Origin: Candidatus Nitronereus thalassa
Lineage (GTDB): Bacteria > Nitrospirota > Nitrospiria > Nitrospirales > UBA8639
Reading direction: 5' to 3'
DNA: 64,000 nucleotides
Assembly: GCF_032191465.1 (NCBI RefSeq)
Contig: NZ_JAQOUE010000001.1
Coordinates: 2,945,501 to 3,009,500, forward strand
Shown one piece after another: positions 54,071-64,000 of the stretch (its first letter is position 1; every line of letters begins with the position of its first letter). The position numbers were made by a program, and so were the translations under genes. The notes under the pieces are model-generated. The model was not told where the DNA came from. It was given only the letters and a program-made list of their open reading frames with translations, and did no database searches.

Positions 54071-55702
54071 ATGGAAATTCCTAAAGGAAATTTTGCAGGG
54101 TTTCGAGCCAATCTCAGGTCTGATCTCTTATCAGGCTTTCTCGTGTTTCTCATCGCCCTGCCATTATGTTTAGGGATTTCATTGGCTTGCGGGTATCCGG
54201 CGATTTCCGGAATTTTTACGGCCATCATTGGCGGTCTGTTGGCCACGTTCTTTAGTAATTCTGAACTCACCATTAAAGGTCCTGCGGCAGGACTCATTGT
54301 GATTGCCCTCGGTTGCGTCACGGAATTTGGTTTTACCGGTGGGAAAGATCCTGCTGCGGATTATCAAGCCTATCGGTTGGCGCTTGGTGTTGGGGTGGCT
54401 GCGGGAATTCTTCAAATTTTGCTTGGGGTATTTCGGTCAGGGATCCTCGGTGAGTTTTTCCCGACTACAGCGATTCATGGTTTGTTGGCTGCGATAGGGG
54501 TTATCATCATTGCCAAGCAGTTTCCCATCATGCTCGGACTTCATCCCGACGGAAAACCGCTAGAATTACTTGCCAATATACCTACCTTTGTTTTGAGCAT
54601 GAATCCGAAAATCGGATTGATTGGGATCTTGAGCCTTCTTATCATGTTTGGATATGCGGTCATCCGCAATCCCCGGTTGAAAGTCATTCCGGCCCCCATG
54701 ATTGTGTTGATCGTCGCGGTTCCCCTAGGTCTGTTTTTGGAAATTGGGAAAGAGGGAACGTACACCTTTCTAGACCATACCTATAGCTTGGGCGAAAAAT
54801 TTTTTGTGGATGTTCCCTTGAACATGTTTACGGCCATCACCTTCCCTGATTTTTCCGGGTTAACGACGGTGATCGGGATTAAGTATGTGATGATGTTTGC
54901 GATCATTGGAAGCCTGGAATCGTTATTGAGTGCGAAGGCGATTGATGGGATCGATCCTTGGGGACGGAAGACAGATATGGATCGGGACCTACTCGCCGTG
55001 GGTCTTGGGAATACAGTGGCAGCGTTTATTGGCGGGTTGCCTATGATTTCGGAAATCGTCAGAAGTAAGGCGAATATCGACAATGGGGCACAGACACGAT
55101 TTGCCAATTTTTTTCATGGGCTGTTTTTATTGGTGTTTGTGGCCTTGATTCCTGGGTTGATTAATCAGATACCCTTGGCAGCCTTAGGGGCATTGCTGGT
55201 CTTTACCGGATTCCGGTTGGCTTCTCCCAAAGAGTTTGTTCATATGTATTATTTAGGTAAAGACCAATTCATTATTTTTATGTCGACGGTGATAGGTGTA
55301 CTTGCGACCGATCTTCTGGTAGGCATCGGAATTGGCATTGGCGTAAAAGTGATAATCCATCTTTACAATGGAACACCTATTCATTCCTTTTTCAAATTGA
55401 ATGCGGAGGTCACTCGGGAAGATGAACATTCAGCTACCATCGTCATTCGGGGAGCCGCGGTTTTCAGTACCTGGATTCCTTTACGTAAATATCTCCATCG
55501 CTATCTTCAAGAAGGGAAAAATGTCACCTTAAATTTTTCCGATACCCGATTGGTCGATCACACGGTCATGTCCAAGCTCTATGAATGGATTATGGAATTC
55601 GAGGAAAAAAATTGTGAACTCTTTGTTCGAGGGTTAGCCGAGCATGAAGCCATGGCTGACTCGATTGTAGCTGCTCATGTGAAGCGGAAAACAAGAGAAT
55701 GA
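54071..55702 (+). CDS. SulP-family anion (bicarbonate?) transporter
   Basis: 543-residue membrane transporter with about 12-14 hydrophobic segments and a C-terminal STAS domain (about 440-540). DLLSGFLVFLIALPLCLGIS and NSELTIKGPAAGL are SulP family features. SulP proteins move sulfate, bicarbonate or other anions; closeness to two dabA genes and a PII-like gene favours bicarbonate (BicA-like) but the substrate is inferred. No close ribosome-binding site stronger than AAT ATGG context is seen. Confidence 0.9.
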   Translation: MEIPKGNFAGFRANLRSDLLSGFLVFLIALPLCLGISLACGYPAISGIFTAIIGGLLATFFSNSELTIKGPAAGLIVIALGCVTEFGFTGGKDPAADYQAYRLALGVGVAAGILQILLGVFRSGILGEFFPTTAIHGLLAAIGVIIIAKQFPIMLGLHPDGKPLELLANIPTFVLSMNPKIGLIGILSLLIMFGYAVIRNPRLKVIPAPMIVLIVAVPLGLFLEIGKEGTYTFLDHTYSLGEKFFVDVPLNMFTAITFPDFSGLTTVIGIKYVMMFAIIGSLESLLSAKAIDGIDPWGRKTDMDRDLLAVGLGNTVAAFIGGLPMISEIVRSKANIDNGAQTRFANFFHGLFLLVFVALIPGLINQIPLAALGALLVFTGFRLASPKEFVHMYYLGKDQFIIFMSTVIGVLATDLLVGIGIGIGVKVIIHLYNGTPIHSFFKLNAEVTREDEHSATIVIRGAAVFSTWIPLRKYLHRYLQEGKNVTLNFSDTRLVDHTVMSKLYEWIMEFEEKNCELFVRGLAEHEAMADSIVAAHVKRKTRE

Positions 55703-55990
55703 TATCATAGCCTTTCCATGCCTCCTGATGGGATTCATCCACTTTTATTCTAATTTTTTCTGTCTACGTTGATCTTCTCCAAAAGCGATATCCACATAGA
55801 TTTGAGCGAATACGCTCATCGATATTTGTGCGGTTTTGCTCAATTCTTACTGAATCCATAAGAATTTCTTTCATTAATTTTTCAATTCTTTGTTTTTCTT
55901 GGCCTTTTTGAGGCATAGAAAAATCGTCCAATTTGGCATTTCAATTGCTTTAAATAAATTGTCGGCGAATTTTCACAAGGAGGAATGGAA

Positions 55991-56161
55991 ATGTCAGAAT
56001 TTGATATCTTATACAACAACATGCATCGGAATTTCCCCAAACCCACCAAATCATCAGAGACCGTTACCAAAAAAAGTAGTGTGACCCAAGAGGGTGAGGA
56101 ATCAAAAAAGCCAGAATTTTCAAATAGTCCCTTTAAGACGCTCCTCTCAAAAATTTTCTAA
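55991..56161 (+). CDS. 56-residue small protein between sulP and dabA
   Basis: ATG with AAGGAGG seven to eight bases upstream. The polar, Lys/Ser/Thr-rich product (MSEFDILYNNMHRNFPKP at the start, FKTLLSKIF at the end) has no membrane helix. Unrecognised. It lies alone between two carbon-uptake genes, in a stretch (55703-56536) with no other gene. An in-frame ATG at 55985 is too close to the ribosome-binding site. Confidence 0.5.
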   Translation: MSEFDILYNNMHRNFPKPTKSSETVTKKSSVTQEGEESKKPEFSNSPFKTLLSKIF

Positions 56162-56265
56162 TTTTCTTGTTTCTGCAGCGCTCTTCCTAGGCGTTTGCTT
56201 CGTCTTTTCCGCCTCTTTGCTCTCCACTGAGAAGTTTGCCTCCATTCTGATTCAATAAATATTTC

Positions 56266-56294
56266 TTGAGCCTTCCTAATTTCCTTGCTATAAG
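56266..56294 (+). promoter_or_regulatory. Promoter of the dabA leader
   Basis: TTGAGC, 17-base spacer, TATAAG. It would start transcription near 56301 and produce a leader of about 235 bases before dabA. Confidence 0.5.
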
Positions 56295-56300
56295 TGGTAT

Positions 56301-56450
56301 AACCGATTGATTTTAAAGCGATCCATGATAGGTGGCTGCTCCTTTCGTGGGGTGAGAATCTGCAGTAAGGCAGAAGTCTTGAGCTCGAACCTAATTGAAA
56401 ATAAAGGCTGTGTGGTTGCTGACTTATAAAAAATGGGTCAGTGGCAGTTC
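56301..56450 (+). promoter_or_regulatory. dabA leader RNA, attenuator candidate
   Basis: Contains GGCAG (56369-56373) and GAGCTCGAACCT (56381-56392), matching the sulP leader with 11 of 12 bases and nearly equal spacing (12 versus 13). CTGAC (56419-56423) pairs with GTCAG (56437-56441). The adjoining GGTTG (56414-56418) can pair with CAACC (56455-56459) inside the terminator 5' arm, giving two alternative folds. Ligand or protein effector unknown. Confidence 0.45.
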
Positions 56451-56507
56451 AAGCCAACCGTGTTCCATTTTTTTATGGGTGGAACAGTAGCGGTTGGCTT
56501 TTTTTTT
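56451..56507 (+). terminator. Intrinsic terminator just upstream of dabA
   Basis: AGCCAACCG (56452-56460) pairs perfectly with CGGTTGGCT (56491-56499), and GTTCCA (56462-56467) with TGGAAC (56480-56485), then nine T residues (56499-56507). It lies 30 bases before the dabA ATG, so it would block dabA expression unless relieved. Confidence 0.85.
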
Positions 56508-56536
56508 ATGAATTCTAAGTTGCAGCGACGCAATTC

Positions 56537-59500
56537 ATGATAAGGGAACCAATAAAACCCATGATTTCTCATGATGAACGTGATCACCTTCGGGTGGCCA
56601 TTACCAAAGCGAGCGAATTGATTGCACCCTTTTGGCCCATGAGAACGATGATCGCCCAAAATCCTATACACGGTTTGGAATATCTTCCGTTTGATGAGGC
56701 CGTTCGTCAGGGTCAACAATTTCTAGCCGGAAGGGGATATCTGCCGAACGAGGAGTATCGACAGTTTTTTCACAAGGGACGGATTAGGTTCCAGGATCTT
56801 CAGCAGGCGTTAGCTCGAGTCAGACCGGAATCGGAAGACCAGGGCATTATTAAGGTTGGGAGTCGTCAAGTGACGGTCTCTGATGTTTGGCTCTCCCACT
56901 TGATCTTTGAGTTTGTAGCATTAGAACCTGTGCTCTTACCATGGGAACTCAGTGAGGATGGGTCAACAAAGCGTTTCCGCCAAGACCTTCCAACTGATTC
57001 GAGGAAGCGAATCATTGCTCGAACTATCGAGGAATGTGAACATTGTCGCGACTTTCCTGAAAAGGCCTATCTGATCAACCTTTGGAAAAGTATCCTTGCG
57101 GTGCTTGGTTTTTCTTCTGCCGCTCCTGGGGAATTGTCTTTCTCAAAGTCCAGTGATTTTCCTGAAGAGATTCATATGGCTCTGCCAGCCCAACAAACCC
57201 TCAGTGATTGGGTGGGGAAATTAGCCGGAGTCGGGTTAGTCGAACAGATTAACCAACAAATGATCAAATGGATTGCCGGGTTTCTTGATGAAGGGTTGGC
57301 TGGTTGGGAAATGGGCTTGCGAGAATCTGGATTCTATTCTGCATGGAGAGAATTGGCTTCTCGGGATCACACGGGCCGGTTTTTGGGAATCCAAGGTTTT
57401 ACGAAAAAAGTTCAGGCTCTTCCCCTTGACCCAGAAGAAGCGATCGTGTGGGGTTTACAGCGTTTGGGCATTCACCCAACTCAATGGCAAGCATATATTT
57501 CTCGACTGCTCTCTCAATTGCCGGGGTGGACTCGGTATATTCGTTGGCTAGGTGAACATCCAGAATATCCTGCCCAGAAAAAGTATCCCATAGATCCAAT
57601 ACAGTATTTAGCTATGCGGTTATTTTATGAAGTGGAGTGTACTCAGGTTGTCTGTCAGCAAGAATGGGGCATTGACGGAATCCTTCCCGCCGTGAGTGGG
57701 TACTGGAACGCTCGACGAGATGACTATGCTATTCGAATGGGAAAAGGATTGTATTCGAGTGATCCCACCAAACAGGCAATTTGTCGCGATGCCTGGCGAT
57801 TGTTTCATCTCGCCCAGTGCATGGAATGGTCCCCGATCGACGTGCAAGGTTTATCCTTGTTGGAGGGGCAGAAACTCCTCAATTGGCTCGATGCTTTTCC
57901 GCCAGATCAACATGGCCCCGTGTGGCTGGAGGCGTATGAGGGGGGTTTCCGGAAAGACCTACTCCAAAAACTCTTCGCACACCAGGGCATAGTTTCTCCA
58001 TTAGACATTCGGCCCAAGGCCCAACTCGTGTTTTGTATTGACGTGCGATCGGAATCCTTTCGTCGGCATATCGAAGCCCAAGGACCGTATGAAACGTTTG
58101 GGTTCGCCGGGTTTTTCGGCATTCCGATTAGCCACCAAGGGTTTGATCATGAGGGATGGTCCGACTTGTGTCCGGTGTTATTATCTCCCAACCATGCCGT
58201 GAAAGAACTTCCGAGGTCGGGAGAGGAGCAGTCGCTTCAACAATATCTCACCGGGACTCGATGGCGGCAATTAGGCGATCATGTGTTTCGTGATCTGAAA
58301 CAAAATCCTCTTGGGTCATTGATGGTAATTGATGTATTTGGGTTATTCTTTAGCCTCGGCCTTGTGGGGAAAACTTTACTGCTCAAGCCCTATCGCGCAG
58401 TCAAAGCCAAGATCCATCGATGGTTTACATTTCCCGTATCAACACTGATCGAGGTGGCTTCTTCAAAAGCCAGTAGTGATTGTCAAGAGGAAGAAGTGTC
58501 GCTACAGGAGATCCCTTCAGGGCGCGCACGAGGGTTCTCGACAGACGAACGAGCCACCTTCATCGAAAATGGATTGCGGGCCATGGGGCTTACCAAGAAT
58601 TTTGGCCGATTAGTCGTCCTCTGTGGTCATGGAAGTGAGACCGATAACAACCCGTACTTTGGCGCCTTGGATTGCGGTGCCTGTGGGGGAAATCCAGGGG
58701 ATGCCAATGCGCGAGTATTTGCCTCTATGGCGAATGACCCCGAAGTTCGGCACATTCTCAAAGAGAAGGGATTACCTATTCCCGATGATACGTGGTTCCT
58801 TCCAGGAAAACATAATACGACAACGGATCGAGTGACGTTTTACGACCTAGAGGAACTCCCTCAAAGTCACCAAGCCGATATCGCGGCCTTGCATCAAGAT
58901 CTAGAATCCGCAGGCGCTCATCAGGCTCTTGAACGATGCCAACGTATTCCCAGCGCTCCGACCAAAATTTCTCCAGAAAAGGCCTTTGCGCATGTGGCCG
59001 GGCGAAGTGGCGATTGGGCCAACCCGCGACCGGAATGGGGATTAGCAGGCAATGCGGCTTTTCTCATTGGGAGAAGGAAGCTTACGAAAGGGTTGGACTT
59101 AGGTGGTCGGGTCTTTTTGCATTCTTACGATCCCCTTGCTGATCCTGAAGGGGCAATTCTCGAAAAAATCATGACTGCCCCTTTGATCGTTGGTGAATGG
59201 ATTAATACCGGATATTACTTTTCGGGGGTGGATCCGTGGGCCTATGGTAGTGGAAGTAAGGTCATCCACAATGTCGTGGGTGGAGTGGGAGTCATGTTAG
59301 GTAGCCAAAGTGATTTACAAATGGGATTCCCGTTGCAAACAGTCAACAACGGCGATATTCACTACCATGAGCCAATGCGACTCCTCGCCATCATTGAACA
59401 CCATCCAAGCGTGATCTCGTCGACCATTCAAAAGCATCAGATCCTTCAACAACTGTTCCATAATCAATGGCTCAACCTTATAGCCCTCGATCCTCATACC

Positions 59501-59566
59501 AGTGAATTTCATCGATATAATCCTGATGCCTCATGGGAGTTTCTTAAAGTAGTGGTTTCTAATTGA
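56537..59566 (+). CDS. dabA: DabA-type inorganic carbon uptake subunit (DUF2309), copy 1
   Basis: 1009-residue DUF2309/UPF0753 protein, distantly beta-carbonic-anhydrase-like, which with the membrane subunit DabB drives energy-coupled CO2/bicarbonate accumulation. Zinc-ligand motifs are intact: VFCIDVRSESFRRH (Cys and Asp, near residue 496) and LCGHGSETDNNP plus ALDCGACGG (His and Cys, near 695-710), with 15 residues from His to Cys. C-terminal HYHEPMRLLAI is also family-typical. No DabB (NuoL/MrpD-like) gene is next to it, unlike the usual dabBA pair; SulP is the nearest membrane partner. Confidence 0.93.
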   Translation: MIREPIKPMISHDERDHLRVAITKASELIAPFWPMRTMIAQNPIHGLEYLPFDEAVRQGQQFLAGRGYLPNEEYRQFFHKGRIRFQDLQQALARVRPESEDQGIIKVGSRQVTVSDVWLSHLIFEFVALEPVLLPWELSEDGSTKRFRQDLPTDSRKRIIARTIEECEHCRDFPEKAYLINLWKSILAVLGFSSAAPGELSFSKSSDFPEEIHMALPAQQTLSDWVGKLAGVGLVEQINQQMIKWIAGFLDEGLAGWEMGLRESGFYSAWRELASRDHTGRFLGIQGFTKKVQALPLDPEEAIVWGLQRLGIHPTQWQAYISRLLSQLPGWTRYIRWLGEHPEYPAQKKYPIDPIQYLAMRLFYEVECTQVVCQQEWGIDGILPAVSGYWNARRDDYAIRMGKGLYSSDPTKQAICRDAWRLFHLAQCMEWSPIDVQGLSLLEGQKLLNWLDAFPPDQHGPVWLEAYEGGFRKDLLQKLFAHQGIVSPLDIRPKAQLVFCIDVRSESFRRHIEAQGPYETFGFAGFFGIPISHQGFDHEGWSDLCPVLLSPNHAVKELPRSGEEQSLQQYLTGTRWRQLGDHVFRDLKQNPLGSLMVIDVFGLFFSLGLVGKTLLLKPYRAVKAKIHRWFTFPVSTLIEVASSKASSDCQEEEVSLQEIPSGRARGFSTDERATFIENGLRAMGLTKNFGRLVVLCGHGSETDNNPYFGALDCGACGGNPGDANARVFASMANDPEVRHILKEKGLPIPDDTWFLPGKHNTTTDRVTFYDLEELPQSHQADIAALHQDLESAGAHQALERCQRIPSAPTKISPEKAFAHVAGRSGDWANPRPEWGLAGNAAFLIGRRKLTKGLDLGGRVFLHSYDPLADPEGAILEKIMTAPLIVGEWINTGYYFSGVDPWAYGSGSKVIHNVVGGVGVMLGSQSDLQMGFPLQTVNNGDIHYHEPMRLLAIIEHHPSVISSTIQKHQILQQLFHNQWLNLIALDPHTSEFHRYNPDASWEFLKVVVSN

Positions 59567-59601
59567 TCCTTCATTAACAACCATATCTACTAAAACTTGG
59601 G

Positions 59602-60347
59602 TTAAGAGGCCTTTTTTGTCGTGGATGTATTTGGCTTGGGCCATGCCTGGCGTAAATACATCACCGCTTGGTCCAAAGCCTCATTTAGTCCCACCACCCT
59701 GAGAGTTTCTAATGCCTGATCTTCCTCAAGACGAAATTGTTGCCCATGAGAGATCCTGTAATTCGGGGAAACCGATTTGAATCCATAGGCACATCCAGCT
59801 CCCTCAGAGTGGCAGACGAAGTACCCATGGCTTGTACAAGCCATTTACCAGACTTGGGGGCCAGGATCCCGATCTCCACGGAGGCATGACTGACAGTCTC
59901 TTGTCCAAAAACTCTGCTCACTTCCGAAGTGAGGTCATATTGTGCCGGGGATGTCATTTTATTGGTTGAGGGCAGGACGACAAGAATTACTTCAAGTTGG
60001 GATTTTTCTGCCATTTCATTTAGATGATCCAACTTTCCTGCCGATGGAAAAATCTCCCAGCGAACAATTTTCTGTAGGGACACGGGAAGGAGTCCCATAA
60101 TTTTTGCCTTTATCCTTGTGACAAATTGCTGCCGATTATCTTCTGAGAGAACTGTCGTTCCCTGGGTAGGATCGCCATTAAGCGCTATCACCATACCGGC
60201 GTGCAAACTGGATGGGTGATGAGTGGATAGTTTGGCTTGAATAACTTCAGAGGAATGTATCTCACTATCAAAATGCGCCTGTAAGCGTGGGGGATTAGGG
60301 CTGTTACAACCACACATTCACAAGGTAAGAAATATCAACAGGATCAT
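59602..60347 (-). pseudogene. Decayed lipoprotein gene (in-frame TGA and frameshift)
   Basis: On the minus strand ATG ATC at 60347 begins MILLIFLTL, then an in-frame TGA (60320-60318), then MCGCNSPNPP, i.e. a lipoprotein signal interrupted by a stop at the tail of its hydrophobic core. A 202-residue frame runs on to 59709 with good coding character up to about residue 175. The natural continuation (SHGQQFRLEEDQALETLRVV to the stop at 59602) is in another frame, as if one base were lost around 59770-59830. Function unknown. Confidence 0.65.
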
Positions 60348-61198
60348 CGCATTCAGTGACTTGAAACTAGAGCCGGGAATTAAGACGGTAAGTTCTTCGG
60401 TTTGTGTGTCTTGTCTCAGGGTTTTTCATGGGCACCCTCTTTCGTAAGTGGCAATCATGTCGAAATCCATCTTACTGACGTTTATTAGAATAATTGGCTC
60501 CTTGGATTGTAGTCCATTCCACTATTAAATATGAACTCGCGTGACATAAACAAATACATAAATTTTTTTATGTTGGGCAAATCTGGAAAAACTTTACTTT
60601 CATCGGAATTGGAAAGGATTGAGCAGGTATCTTAATTTCAGCTAAGGCAAAGTACATTCCAGAATGTAGTTGGACCTAGAACGACATCAATGGGTTATAT
60701 AGTGTAGTAGAGTGCCACTAGGTTCCCTTTTTCGAATCCGAATGTTCGACCCTCTGGCACCATTCTCGAATGGTACGCTGGCTGACCTAGTCTTCACGAA
60801 TAAATCATGCAGAGAAATTGTCGTTTATGAAGAGTTCGCGGAACGATTCTGATAAATCTGGTTAATATTAAGCCGTTTTCGGGTATCGACTCCTACAATG
60901 GCAGAGGGGAAACTTTTAGATTGTTTAGAAAAGGTATGTTAGGAAATGGTTAGAGTTTCTCACCTGATGAAAATGGCGGAGTGCAATGAGGGCGGTCATG
61001 CCGCTTTCCGAGGGAGTAGGTCAAGATATGGCCGAAGGAGAGGGTCAAAGTAGGGCAAAGATCCCCTGGCTTTGGTTATTTATTTTTCCGAGGCAAAACG
61101 CATCCAGCGACAACGTTTCCCTCTTTTTGTGTTTGGGAAGAATTTACTGTAGAGCAAAAGAGTGAGGCTTCTGTCATGAGCGCACCGCTACCTTCTCC
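60348..61198. other. Decayed, gene-free stretch
   Basis: No frame of coding quality. A fragment around 60990-61050 (GGCGGTCATGCCGC followed by spaced GGGTCAA-like words) resembles the terminal part of IS21-family elements, but I can see no transposase or clear inverted repeats. A tRNA-3'-end-like GTTCGACCCTCTGGCACCA at 60747-60765 has no matching arms. Confidence 0.35.
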
Positions 61199-61342
61199 AC
61201 CATTCAGATTGCTGAAATCCTTCAACAACTGTCCCATAATTGATGGCTCAATCTCATAGTTTTCGCTCCTTACACCCTCGAATTCCATCAATTTAGTCCC
61301 ACAGTCACCTGGGAATTTCTAAGAGGAGTTCTTTTCACATGA
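61199..61342 (+). pseudogene. Remnant of a third dabA 3' end
   Basis: Forty-seven codons align with the C-terminus of DabA copy 1 in one frame: T-I-Q..ILQQL-HN, then an in-frame TGA where copy 1 has Gln, then WLNLI..P.T.EFH....P...WEFL..V and a stop at 61340-61342. About 23 of 42 residues match in the ILQQL-to-stop part, and the DNA is similar at the word level. It is closer to copy 1 than to copy 2. Everything upstream of it is lost or too decayed to align by eye. Confidence 0.85.
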
Positions 61343-61360
61343 TTCGGTAAAAATCTCTCG

Positions 61361-61696
61361 TCACGGTTTCTCTGGAATGAAACGATCTCGACGGCTCACC
61401 GCCACATCAGACACAAACATTGCCCCCGAATGTCGATCGAAGAGTGGCCCAAGGCCAGAAAGTATTGGTTCAACTTTCTCTGCCGGTACCACCGTGAAGA
61501 CCATGACTTGGCTAGCCGTGTCATTAAACATGAGGTGCCCTTCATGAAATCCATGGTGCCCTTTTCCTGAAATAATGTTGATGACCGTGTACCCGGTGGC
61601 TTTGACTTTGTCTAGCAAGTCACTCACAAATTTCAGATGCTCTCCCTCAATAATGATTTTGATTTCCTTCATGGGATGAAGAATTAGACCACTCAT
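61361..61696 (-). CDS. PII-like (GlnB-fold) regulatory protein
   Basis: 111 residues with a ferredoxin-like PII fold: MKEIKIIIEGEHLKFVSDLL first strand and helix, GYTVINIISGKGHHG before a shortened T-loop region, and VPAEKVEPILSGLGPLF in the last helix. The uridylylated Tyr of classical GlnB is not evident, so it belongs to the divergent PII-like group known beside bicarbonate transporters (for example CPII/SbtB types). AAGGAGTG lies nine bases before the ATG. It is immediately downstream of dabA copy 2 on the same strand, suggesting control of Ci uptake. Confidence 0.75.
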   Translation of the reverse strand: MSGLILHPMKEIKIIIEGEHLKFVSDLLDKVKATGYTVINIISGKGHHGFHEGHLMFNDTASQVMVFTVVPAEKVEPILSGLGPLFDRHSGAMFVSDVAVSRRDRFIPEKP

Positions 61697-61771
61697 GGCG
61701 CATGCACTCCTTTTTTCTAGAGCGAGTAGATTGTTCTTTGTATTTTTCCGCCGAATGTTTGGGGCGGTGAC

Positions 61772-64000
61772 TTATTCTATAGCATTTGGAGAGGTCGGTT
61801 CAGCTATTTTACTCCATCCTTGCCTTGGACGGTATTGGTAAAAAATTCCTTCCTCTGGTTCCAAAGCGATTAAATGAACCCAGCGGCCGTCAAAAAAACG
61901 TTGCAGGATCTCATTCTTTTGGATAAGCATGCTAATGCGATCGCGTGGAGCTTCCACAATATAGAGTGGCCGCATGGCTTCATGATAGGGCCGCTCCCCT
62001 TCCATGACAGTCTGCCACGCCAGCCCAATTCGTAAATCACTTTGTGTGCCAAACATGACACCGATTCGGCCAGTCACGTTATGATACATTTTGCTCCCGC
62101 TCCCATAGATCTCAGGATCCACAGTGGAAAAGTAATGCTCCATACTGATCCATTGGATGACGACTCCGGGTGCGGTTAAGATGATCTGCAGGAACTTGCC
62201 GGTAGGATCTCCTTGATAATCGTACGAATGCAAGAACGTCCGTCCTTCCAGATTCAAGCCCATGGTCAGGTCTCGGCGTCCCACGATAAAGGCCGCATTG
62301 CCAGATAAACCCCATTCGGGTCGAACTTGGGACCAATCCAGGCTGCGATTTTTCACTTCCCGGGCCGCCATTTCAGCAGATAATAATTTCTGCACATCGG
62401 GAAATCGACCGCATCGCTCTAGGCTATTTTGTTGACCGGCCTCTTCAAGGTCGAGAATCAACTGTGACAATTGGTGACGATGGGTCGAAGGCACATCCTC
62501 TAAATCAAAAAACTGGACGGCATCGGTGGTCGTATCAACCTGCCCAGCAAGGAAATAGGTATCCTGTGGAATCGTAATTCCTCGCTTCTGGAGAAGTTTT
62601 CGGATATCAGACTTGTTGGCCATGAATGCAAACGTGCGGGCGTTGGGCATCCCATGATTGCCTCCGCAGGCTCCACAATCGAGGGCAGATTCGAAGGGAT
62701 TGTTATCGGAGGTACTTCCATGGCCGCACAACAGGACTAATCGTGCAAAATTTTTGGTGAGACCCATGAGGCGAAGGTTAGTTTCAACATAATTGACTTG
62801 CTCTGTTAATGTAAAACCTGTTTGGGTAATGCGATGTAATCGATCTGAGGCGCCGCGCGAATCGATACGGTAGTGGTCGCGGAGGATGCCGATGAAGGCA
62901 GTTTCTTGGTCCGGTGTCAACCCAAGGGCCTGGCGATATTTCTCGGGGAGAGGGCCACGGAAATTATTTTCCTCCAATGCATATTGGCGCAAGGTCTCCA
63001 CGATTTCTTGAGTCACTTTTTTGCCAGACAGATTGAGTTGTTCTCGTAACGCACGGCGGATTGTGGGTCGTTGTTCCGCCGCTAACATTCCAAGGGCCTC
63101 CTCCTCGGTCAATTTATTCACGGTAAGGGTCGTGGCAATTGATGGGGCAAAAGACCGCTGAATCCATGATGAAAGTTCCCGATACCACGTGCCGAAAGTA
63201 GTTTTCAAAATAAAAGGAATGCCAAAAAACCATCCCAGCGCTTCGACCATGACATAGGGGGTAATCACATTTTCTTTGAGGTTGTGCAGCAAGTGATGGC
63301 CGGTCTGAAGGAGCTGTATGCCGGCAAGATGTTTTTCGGCTTCCAAGTTTTGATAAGCTCGCGGAACTTCCCGTATCACATGCTTGGGTTTCAGCAGAAC
63401 CGGGCATTGGTCAGTTTCATGATGGGTTCCGAAGGCACGAAAGCGGAAGGGAATTGCAAAAAAACCTGCAAAACCCAACGTTTCATATCCCCCGATTTCT
63501 TCCAAATGCCGACGAAACCCTTCCGAGCGAACATCAATACACAGGATGACTTGGGTTAATGGACGAACTTCGCCATTCTCGACCTGGTCCAGACCAGTAG
63601 TTTTTTGTTTCGCAATAATTTTGGGTCTTAGTTGTTGCAAAAGGGACTTTCGATAGCCCGATTCAAAGGCTTCCAACCAATATGGGGGGTGGAGCTTTTC
63701 TGGAAAATCGTCCATCCAAGACAAAATGGTCTGTAGCTCGCTAGGGGCAGTGTTACTGAGGGTCGCCGGGTCTAAATTCAGAATCTCACACAAACCCAAG
63801 AGGTTTCTGGCCTTCGTTTGTGTTTCTTTGTGGCGATTTTCAAGTAGCATGTCCGCCCTGTATTGTGTGGCAAGTGTTTTCCATGCCTCATTGTTATTTC
63901 CTGAGTACCCGTATCGGAGGCGATCGACTTGATGTATATAATTTCGAGGTAATTCGCCAGTCACGCGGGCTTGGCGCAGGCCGTATACTGATGTTTGGTC
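61772..64000 (-). CDS. dabA: DabA-type inorganic carbon uptake subunit (DUF2309), copy 2, partial
   Basis: 742 residues remain; the frame runs off the window edge, so the N-terminus is missing. It keeps ILCIDVRSEGFRRHL (Cys, Asp) and LLCGHGSTSDNNP with ALDCGACGG (His, Cys), so the zinc site is intact. It differs clearly from copy 1 outside the motifs and is about equal in the shared region. The PII-like gene lies 75 bases downstream. A DabB partner may lie beyond the window upstream of it; only that sequence can tell. Confidence 0.93.
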   Translation of the reverse strand, partial: DQTSVYGLRQARVTGELPRNYIHQVDRLRYGYSGNNNEAWKTLATQYRADMLLENRHKETQTKARNLLGLCEILNLDPATLSNTAPSELQTILSWMDDFPEKLHPPYWLEAFESGYRKSLLQQLRPKIIAKQKTTGLDQVENGEVRPLTQVILCIDVRSEGFRRHLEEIGGYETLGFAGFFAIPFRFRAFGTHHETDQCPVLLKPKHVIREVPRAYQNLEAEKHLAGIQLLQTGHHLLHNLKENVITPYVMVEALGWFFGIPFILKTTFGTWYRELSSWIQRSFAPSIATTLTVNKLTEEEALGMLAAEQRPTIRRALREQLNLSGKKVTQEIVETLRQYALEENNFRGPLPEKYRQALGLTPDQETAFIGILRDHYRIDSRGASDRLHRITQTGFTLTEQVNYVETNLRLMGLTKNFARLVLLCGHGSTSDNNPFESALDCGACGGNHGMPNARTFAFMANKSDIRKLLQKRGITIPQDTYFLAGQVDTTTDAVQFFDLEDVPSTHRHQLSQLILDLEEAGQQNSLERCGRFPDVQKLLSAEMAAREVKNRSLDWSQVRPEWGLSGNAAFIVGRRDLTMGLNLEGRTFLHSYDYQGDPTGKFLQIILTAPGVVIQWISMEHYFSTVDPEIYGSGSKMYHNVTGRIGVMFGTQSDLRIGLAWQTVMEGERPYHEAMRPLYIVEAPRDRISMLIQKNEILQRFFDGRWVHLIALEPEEGIFYQYRPRQGWSKIAEPTSPNAIE

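Follow-up and report, generated by a model that had tools for sequence, protein, structure and literature searches.

DabA (PF10070) is the cytoplasmic subunit of the DAB CO2-hydrating complex, a bacterial CO2-uptake pump, and it is generally known that duplication and deletion leave pseudogene remnants in bacterial genomes. The stretch of DNA analysed here (the window, 64,000 nucleotides from Candidatus Nitronereus thalassa) carries two intact dabA genes, and adjoining them is a segment of 147 bases in which the first-pass annotation had seen the trace of a third. That the locus formerly held another dabA was borne out: the segment is a decayed dabA1 tail adjoining the gene for a PII-like protein, at the place where dabA1 ends in two genomes of other genera (G020 and G023).

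The dabA genes of the locus and the remnant

Copy 1 and copy 2 both qualify as complete DabA family members, each with a profile match at E ~1e-261 and with the zinc ligands aligned. The zinc site of copy 1, comprising C-x-D-x-R, His and Cys, was located by alignment to the solved chain 9rd0_A, which is named DabA2 in the PDB listing; for Halothiobacillus DabA2, PMC13144422 gives the site as Cys351, Asp353, Arg355, His524 and Cys539. Copy 2 is followed by a dabB-like gene, ndhF, purK and purE, and a genome-wide family search listed only two DabA matches. A dead lipoprotein gene next to the remnant had been proposed as well, and the frame is indeed broken twice, by a stop within the signal-peptide region and, close to its end, by a frameshift; homologous frames are 285-336 aa long. 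Its closest homologues are found in other genomes of the family.

Table 1. Positions of the features discussed, given in the window unless a contig is named (G000 is this genome).
Feature	Position	Strand	Remarks
SulP-family transporter gene	54071-55702	+	upstream of copy 1; 88% identity to the gene of same-genus G002
Terminator-like leader hairpin	56429-56508	+	upstream of dabA copy 1; conserved
dabA copy 1	56537-59566	+	intact, 1009 aa; Pfam DabA E 1e-261
Dead lipoprotein-like gene	59641-60347	-	between copy 1 and the remnant; homologues elsewhere in the family
dabA1 remnant	61196-61342	+	48 codons and stop, homologous to the last part of dabA copy 1 (3' end)
In-frame TGA within the remnant	61241-61243	+	faces CAA (Gln) of copy 1
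PII-like gene	61361-61696	-	intact; convergent with the remnant, 18 bp apart; Pfam P-II E 2e-24
dabA copy 2	61772-64000	-	1100 aa in full, extending beyond the window
Second leader element	G000:C1:3017421-3017501		before mrpE

The remnant aligned with the last 48 codons and the stop of dabA copy 1 in a single frame and with no indels, starting at codon 962 of copy 1 and closing with a TGA of its own at 61340-61342. As the first-pass annotation had read from 61199-61342, which on the forward strand translates as TIQIAEILQQLSHN, a stop, WLNLIVFAPYTLEFHQFSPTVTWEFLRGVLFT and a final stop, the match is to the C-terminus of DabA copy 1, with 26 of 47 residues identical. A tblastn search of window positions 59567-61771 with copy 1 aligned residues 955-1007 from 61175 onwards (52.8% over 53 aa, E 1.5e-14), blastn gave 72.4% over 134 bp (E 9e-16), and a repeat finder paired 59420-59567 with 61196-61343 (148 nt, 71%). 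Local alignment within the gap reached a score of 152 at best, compared with a mean of 44.8 and a maximum of 59 in 100 first-order-Markov shuffles, and these shuffles together with the E-values exclude chance similarity as the source.

At E<=0.05, each of 39 full-length DabA1 proteins, copy 1 together with 38 relatives, matched the remnant and had no other match in the 1.8-kb gap, and a DNA profile of dabA1 gave no further dabA1 match there, so that additional dabA pieces in the gap were rejected by both searches. The alignments started at 61196 for 23 of the proteins, earlier (61175-61184) for seven and later for nine, which, with the gap empty elsewhere, limits any upstream extension of the remnant to at most 21 weak bases (to 61175). 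The continuous alignment with copy 1 that had been anticipated was thereby obtained, but not the longer upstream stretch that had been hoped for. As a query of its own, the 47-residue translation had no Pfam match at E<=1, and it did not qualify as a whole protein by the DabA (PF10070) profile; the remnant starts downstream of all zinc-site residues, which are consequently absent, and the catalytic part of DabA is missing. Searched as DNA against 235 genomes of the order (E<=0.001), the remnant had matches in ten other genomes, eight of which are dabA1 genes or the dabA1 remnant of G013, while the other two are 35-bp matches (G212, G218); judged by this search, it appears private to this genome.

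Read from its sequence, the segment is a pseudogene remnant and not a gene, combining homology above chance, disabling changes (the TGA at 61241 and the absence of ~960 codons) and relaxed constraint. When the differences from copy 1 in the first 43 codons were polarised against 24 relatives, 22 of 27 fell on the branch of the remnant and five on that of copy 1, with nine more ambiguous. The changes on the side of the remnant were spread 4/11/7 over the three codon positions, without third-position bias, and third positions made up 15 of the 36 differences between remnant and copy 1 (0.417), a lower share than in all 342 comparable pairs of intact tails (minimum 0.422). Nine of 16 conserved residues are retained in the remnant and 15 in copy 1. 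The internal TGA had been placed at a Gln codon, and it does face one in copy 1, but CAA is two substitutions from TGA, and the Gln codon was accordingly rejected as a simple source of the stop. The absence of indels over 144 bp despite ~28% divergence is slightly unexpected and may be somewhat at odds with long neutral decay.

Gene order and the origin of the remnant

In both G020 and G023, dabA1 faces a convergent series of PII, dabA2, dabB and ndhF, after which come the Mrp genes, preceded in G020 by two extra ORFs. The stop of the intact dabA1 lies 26 bp (G020) or 31 bp (G023) from that of PII, comparable to the spacing of the remnant in Table 1, and this match in position, drawn from two genomes, suggests that the remnant is most likely the original 3' end of dabA1; the live copy 1 would then be a second copy, located upstream. 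New here are the intact dabA1 at PII in two other genera and the position of the PII-dabA2-dabB-ndhF block, which lies between dabA1 and the Mrp genes there as it does in this genome. In the same-genus genome G002, SulP, dabA1 and the genes from MrpE to NuoM are contiguous, with no DabA2 among the matches listed (the Pfam names there are MNHE, MrpF, MnhG, MbhD, MnhB and antiporter-type subunits, the Mrp/Nuo letters having been assigned in this analysis). Between dabA1 and the MrpE leader, contiguous in G002, this genome holds ~12.4 kb (G000:C1:3005067-3017420, from window position 59567 to past its end), with the dead lipoprotein gene, the remnant, PII, dabA2, the dabB-like gene, ndhF, purK, purE, a response regulator and a LysR gene.

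The first-pass suggestion of a recombination junction holds insofar as the dabA2 block lies between dabA1 and Mrp genes that adjoin each other in G002, but the arrangement is common to two other genera, and a scan of neighbouring ORFs, in which the Mrp-type proteins were taken from G002, found no mobile-element gene, integrase or transposase. An old dabA1 tail just before MrpE was considered and rejected, as none was convincing (best tblastn E 0.018); the only match to G002 at that place is a 64-bp leader element. No dabA1 fragment was found beside PII in 24 other PII-flanking stretches, one of them (L014) being bounded by PII and an intact dabA1, and the PII-side arrangement is therefore not general. 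Left out of this comparison were L079, L087 and L090, whose contigs end at or just past PII, and L061 and L062, where dabA1 is intact; the same search also covered the present gap, as well as four complete loci whose DabA is full-length.

The reading to which we assign a probability of about 0.77 is that a dabA1 located directly beside PII was eroded down to the remnant, its 3' end, dabA1 having been duplicated and the PII-side copy having decayed. From the observed homology, decay and matching position in two other genera, we infer duplication as the source and the following order of events. The ancestral arrangement would have been that of G020 and G023, from dabA1 through the convergent PII, dabA2, dabB and ndhF to the Mrp genes. 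In this lineage dabA1 would have been duplicated, the copy nearest SulP (copy 1) remaining intact and the copy nearest PII turning redundant and acquiring a nonsense codon. Deletion of ~960 codons from the PII-side copy would have left the last 48 codons and the stop, near another dead gene.

Placement of the remnant on a fixed dabA1 tree, performed with both protein and DNA, put it best on copy 1's own branch, which led by 6.4 lnL units for protein (RELL support 0.81) and by 9.5 for DNA (RELL support 0.89). Most other branches shown were not rejected by the AU test, the placement being based on 48 codons and the rows of both remnant and copy 1 being long-branched; the two are probably sisters, though not decisively so. 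A Thr at codon 2 and a Phe after Trp-Glu occur in the remnant and, among 39 intact tails, in copy 1 alone, and the length of 48 codons to the stop is common to the remnant, copy 1 and three other intact tails. The best placement and the traits held in common with copy 1 favour duplication, short of proof. Of the earlier view that the copies were "duplicated or imported repeatedly", the first part is therefore favoured, while repeated import is not upheld for the remnant; import is at most possible for copy 1, which groups apart from G002, and for the dabA2 operon, which, as far as the family loci examined show, has its closest relatives in another genus. Duplication by way of the leader elements, which flank dabA1 in G002, was also considered; the exact leader pattern finds none between copy 1 and the remnant, and this route is accordingly without support.

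An incoming dabA (copy 1) could instead have been inserted upstream and have displaced a resident dabA1 beside PII, the remnant being the tail of the resident. Copy 1 is 68% identical to the G002 gene, compared with the 88% of SulP and 81-85% for MrpF, MbhD, MrpB, MrpC and NuoM, and a clade of copy 1 with the G002 dabA1 was rejected (AU p 0.003). Copy 1 also has the longest end branch in the dabA1 tree, and its separation from G002 and long branch can be explained by import or by fast evolution. However, the Mrp genes are likewise uneven when compared with G002 (NuoL 61%, MrpE 71%, MrpD 73%, MrpG 74%), which suggests that copy 1 may simply be fast-evolving. Moreover, such a replacement predicts that the remnant should fall with the G002-like genes, and that branch was worse than copy 1's by 7.9 (protein) and 12.2 (DNA) lnL units, although the AU test still did not reject it (p 0.35 and 0.09). 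We consider replacement unlikely.

Replacement tails brought by elements have been described for some prophages in protein genes, and an element inserted at the 3' end of dabA1 could similarly have supplied a new tail and displaced the original one. Copies of the repeat, which ends at the stop codon, border 1.6 kb at both edges, and positions 60318-61195, within this 1.6 kb, had no homology in 47 other genomes of the family at E<=0.001. An element is nonetheless very improbable, given the lack of integrase and transposase genes in the ORFs scanned, the absence at the edges of any long exact repeat apart from the tail, and the likeness of copy 1's tail to those of its relatives; looked for as an integrase or transposase combined with attachment repeats, a displaced gene tail was not recognised at the remnant. 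That the remnant was retained for a function of its own, as a small protein, a terminator or regulatory DNA of the PII gene, is hardly credible, for although three other genomes also retain isolated tails, of dabA in G012 and G013 and of dabA2, before PII, in G189, there is no sign of coding constraint in the remnant, its terminator-like and promoter-like sites do not exceed those of shuffles, it has no Rfam match at gathering scores, and its matches in the family and order searches are nearly all dabA tails and not a conserved gene in its own right, as had been allowed for at first pass.

Surviving dabA tails and the leader element

In genus g2, dabA1 is broken in at least four genomes, of which G012 holds the tail only, after LysR, G013 the N-terminal half and the tail, and G005 and G008 the N-terminal half only; no dabA1 piece was found in G006 (where ~220 bp beyond LysR were covered), G007, G011 or G014. 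At L063, L064 and L123 (G008, G013 and G005, respectively; two of these loci were read in detail), dabA1 has an in-frame TGA and its second half is largely or wholly missing. In G008, the NuoM-like frame downstream of dabA1 has three stops. These broken genes are the same gene as the remnant, lost by deletion, and two of them keep the 3' tail; they differ in sitting after LysR, whereas the remnant lies beside PII, and in that G005, G008 and G013 keep the N-terminal half. The remnant also fits a wider picture in the family, where dabA1 has been lost in some genomes that retain dabA2 and PII.

Counted in codons of copy 1, the surviving tails start at 962 in this genome, at ~964 (by eye) in G013 and at ~949 (tblastn) or ~958 (ungapped) in G012, hence all within ~codons 949-965, a pattern noticed post hoc in few cases and partly read by eye. 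At L195 (G189:C9, 3087-3302), an isolated C-terminal tail of dabA2 lies between a SulP-like gene and PII, and dabB, ndhF and the rest of dabA2 were not found in 7.1 kb. It is quite doubtful that dab genes are erased in a pattern sparing the last part of dabA (this genome, G012 and G013, with dabA2 in G189); were this so, the 3' end of dabA would be a recurrent recombination seam or would carry something that a neighbouring gene needs. At L093 (G034:C167), both ends of the contig fall inside dabA2, and PII, purE, purK, ndhF and dabB lie between them, an arrangement that looks like either tandem dab operons or a self-closed contig; the contig ends had no exact overlap at the lengths tried.

The leader elements of Table 1 follow a consensus of approximately CAGTACAA-GCCAACC...GGTTGGC-TTTTTT. 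The exact pattern occurred in 17 of 48 family genomes, with 25 matches at 24 places (a palindromic one counting once per strand); the reversed control gave none. After one place at a contig end (L151) had been dropped from the set, all 29 distinct sense copies preceded dabA1 or mrpE (tblastn) and had at least six T in the first eight bases after the stem. With a covariance model built from these 29 copies, matches at E<=0.01 were obtained in 165 of the 235 genomes of the order; most of the genomes listed from outside the family have a single match. Sixteen loci were then read, all outside the family and chosen by hand, several for a known nearby dabA; ndhF was the first downstream match in 14, followed by dabB, dabA2 and PII in 12 of these, while the remaining two (L201, L204) end at contig ends. 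The leader locus of G189 has a SulP-like gene and then the dabA2 tail and PII, and that of G223 had no match to any query gene.

No covariation was seen in the stem of the first leader set, where the stem is invariant by construction, its sequence having been part of the initial search pattern. In an alignment of 20 matches (four antisense), six rows have G-C in place of A-U at one stem pair; the double-change cells exceeded those of all 500 shuffles, whereas the count of pairs showing a double change did not (479 of 500 shuffles reach it). Rfam gave no match to the leader at gathering scores in window positions 55000-64000, nor at E up to 0.5 for three loci. The element may be regarded as a candidate attenuator of the DAB operon and CO2-uptake genes, a lead that is more likely to interest specialists than the remnant. 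A literature search at record level returned no paper on the remnant or on dab leaders.

Comparison with known systems

As a gene remnant the segment is ordinary, and its use is as a marker of gene order: it pins down the history of this CO2-uptake locus, with dabA1 most likely located beside PII before copy 1 became the sole live copy, and it helps to show the rearrangement of the dab cluster. Compared with DabA (PF10070), the remnant is homologous to the C-terminal end of the family but differs in consisting of 48 codons only, interrupted by a stop, with none of the catalytic part. Like the bacterial pseudogene remnants that arise by duplication and deletion, it has an internal stop, relaxed constraint and an intact copy nearby, and has lost ~95% of the gene; it differs from them only by its clear matching position beside PII.
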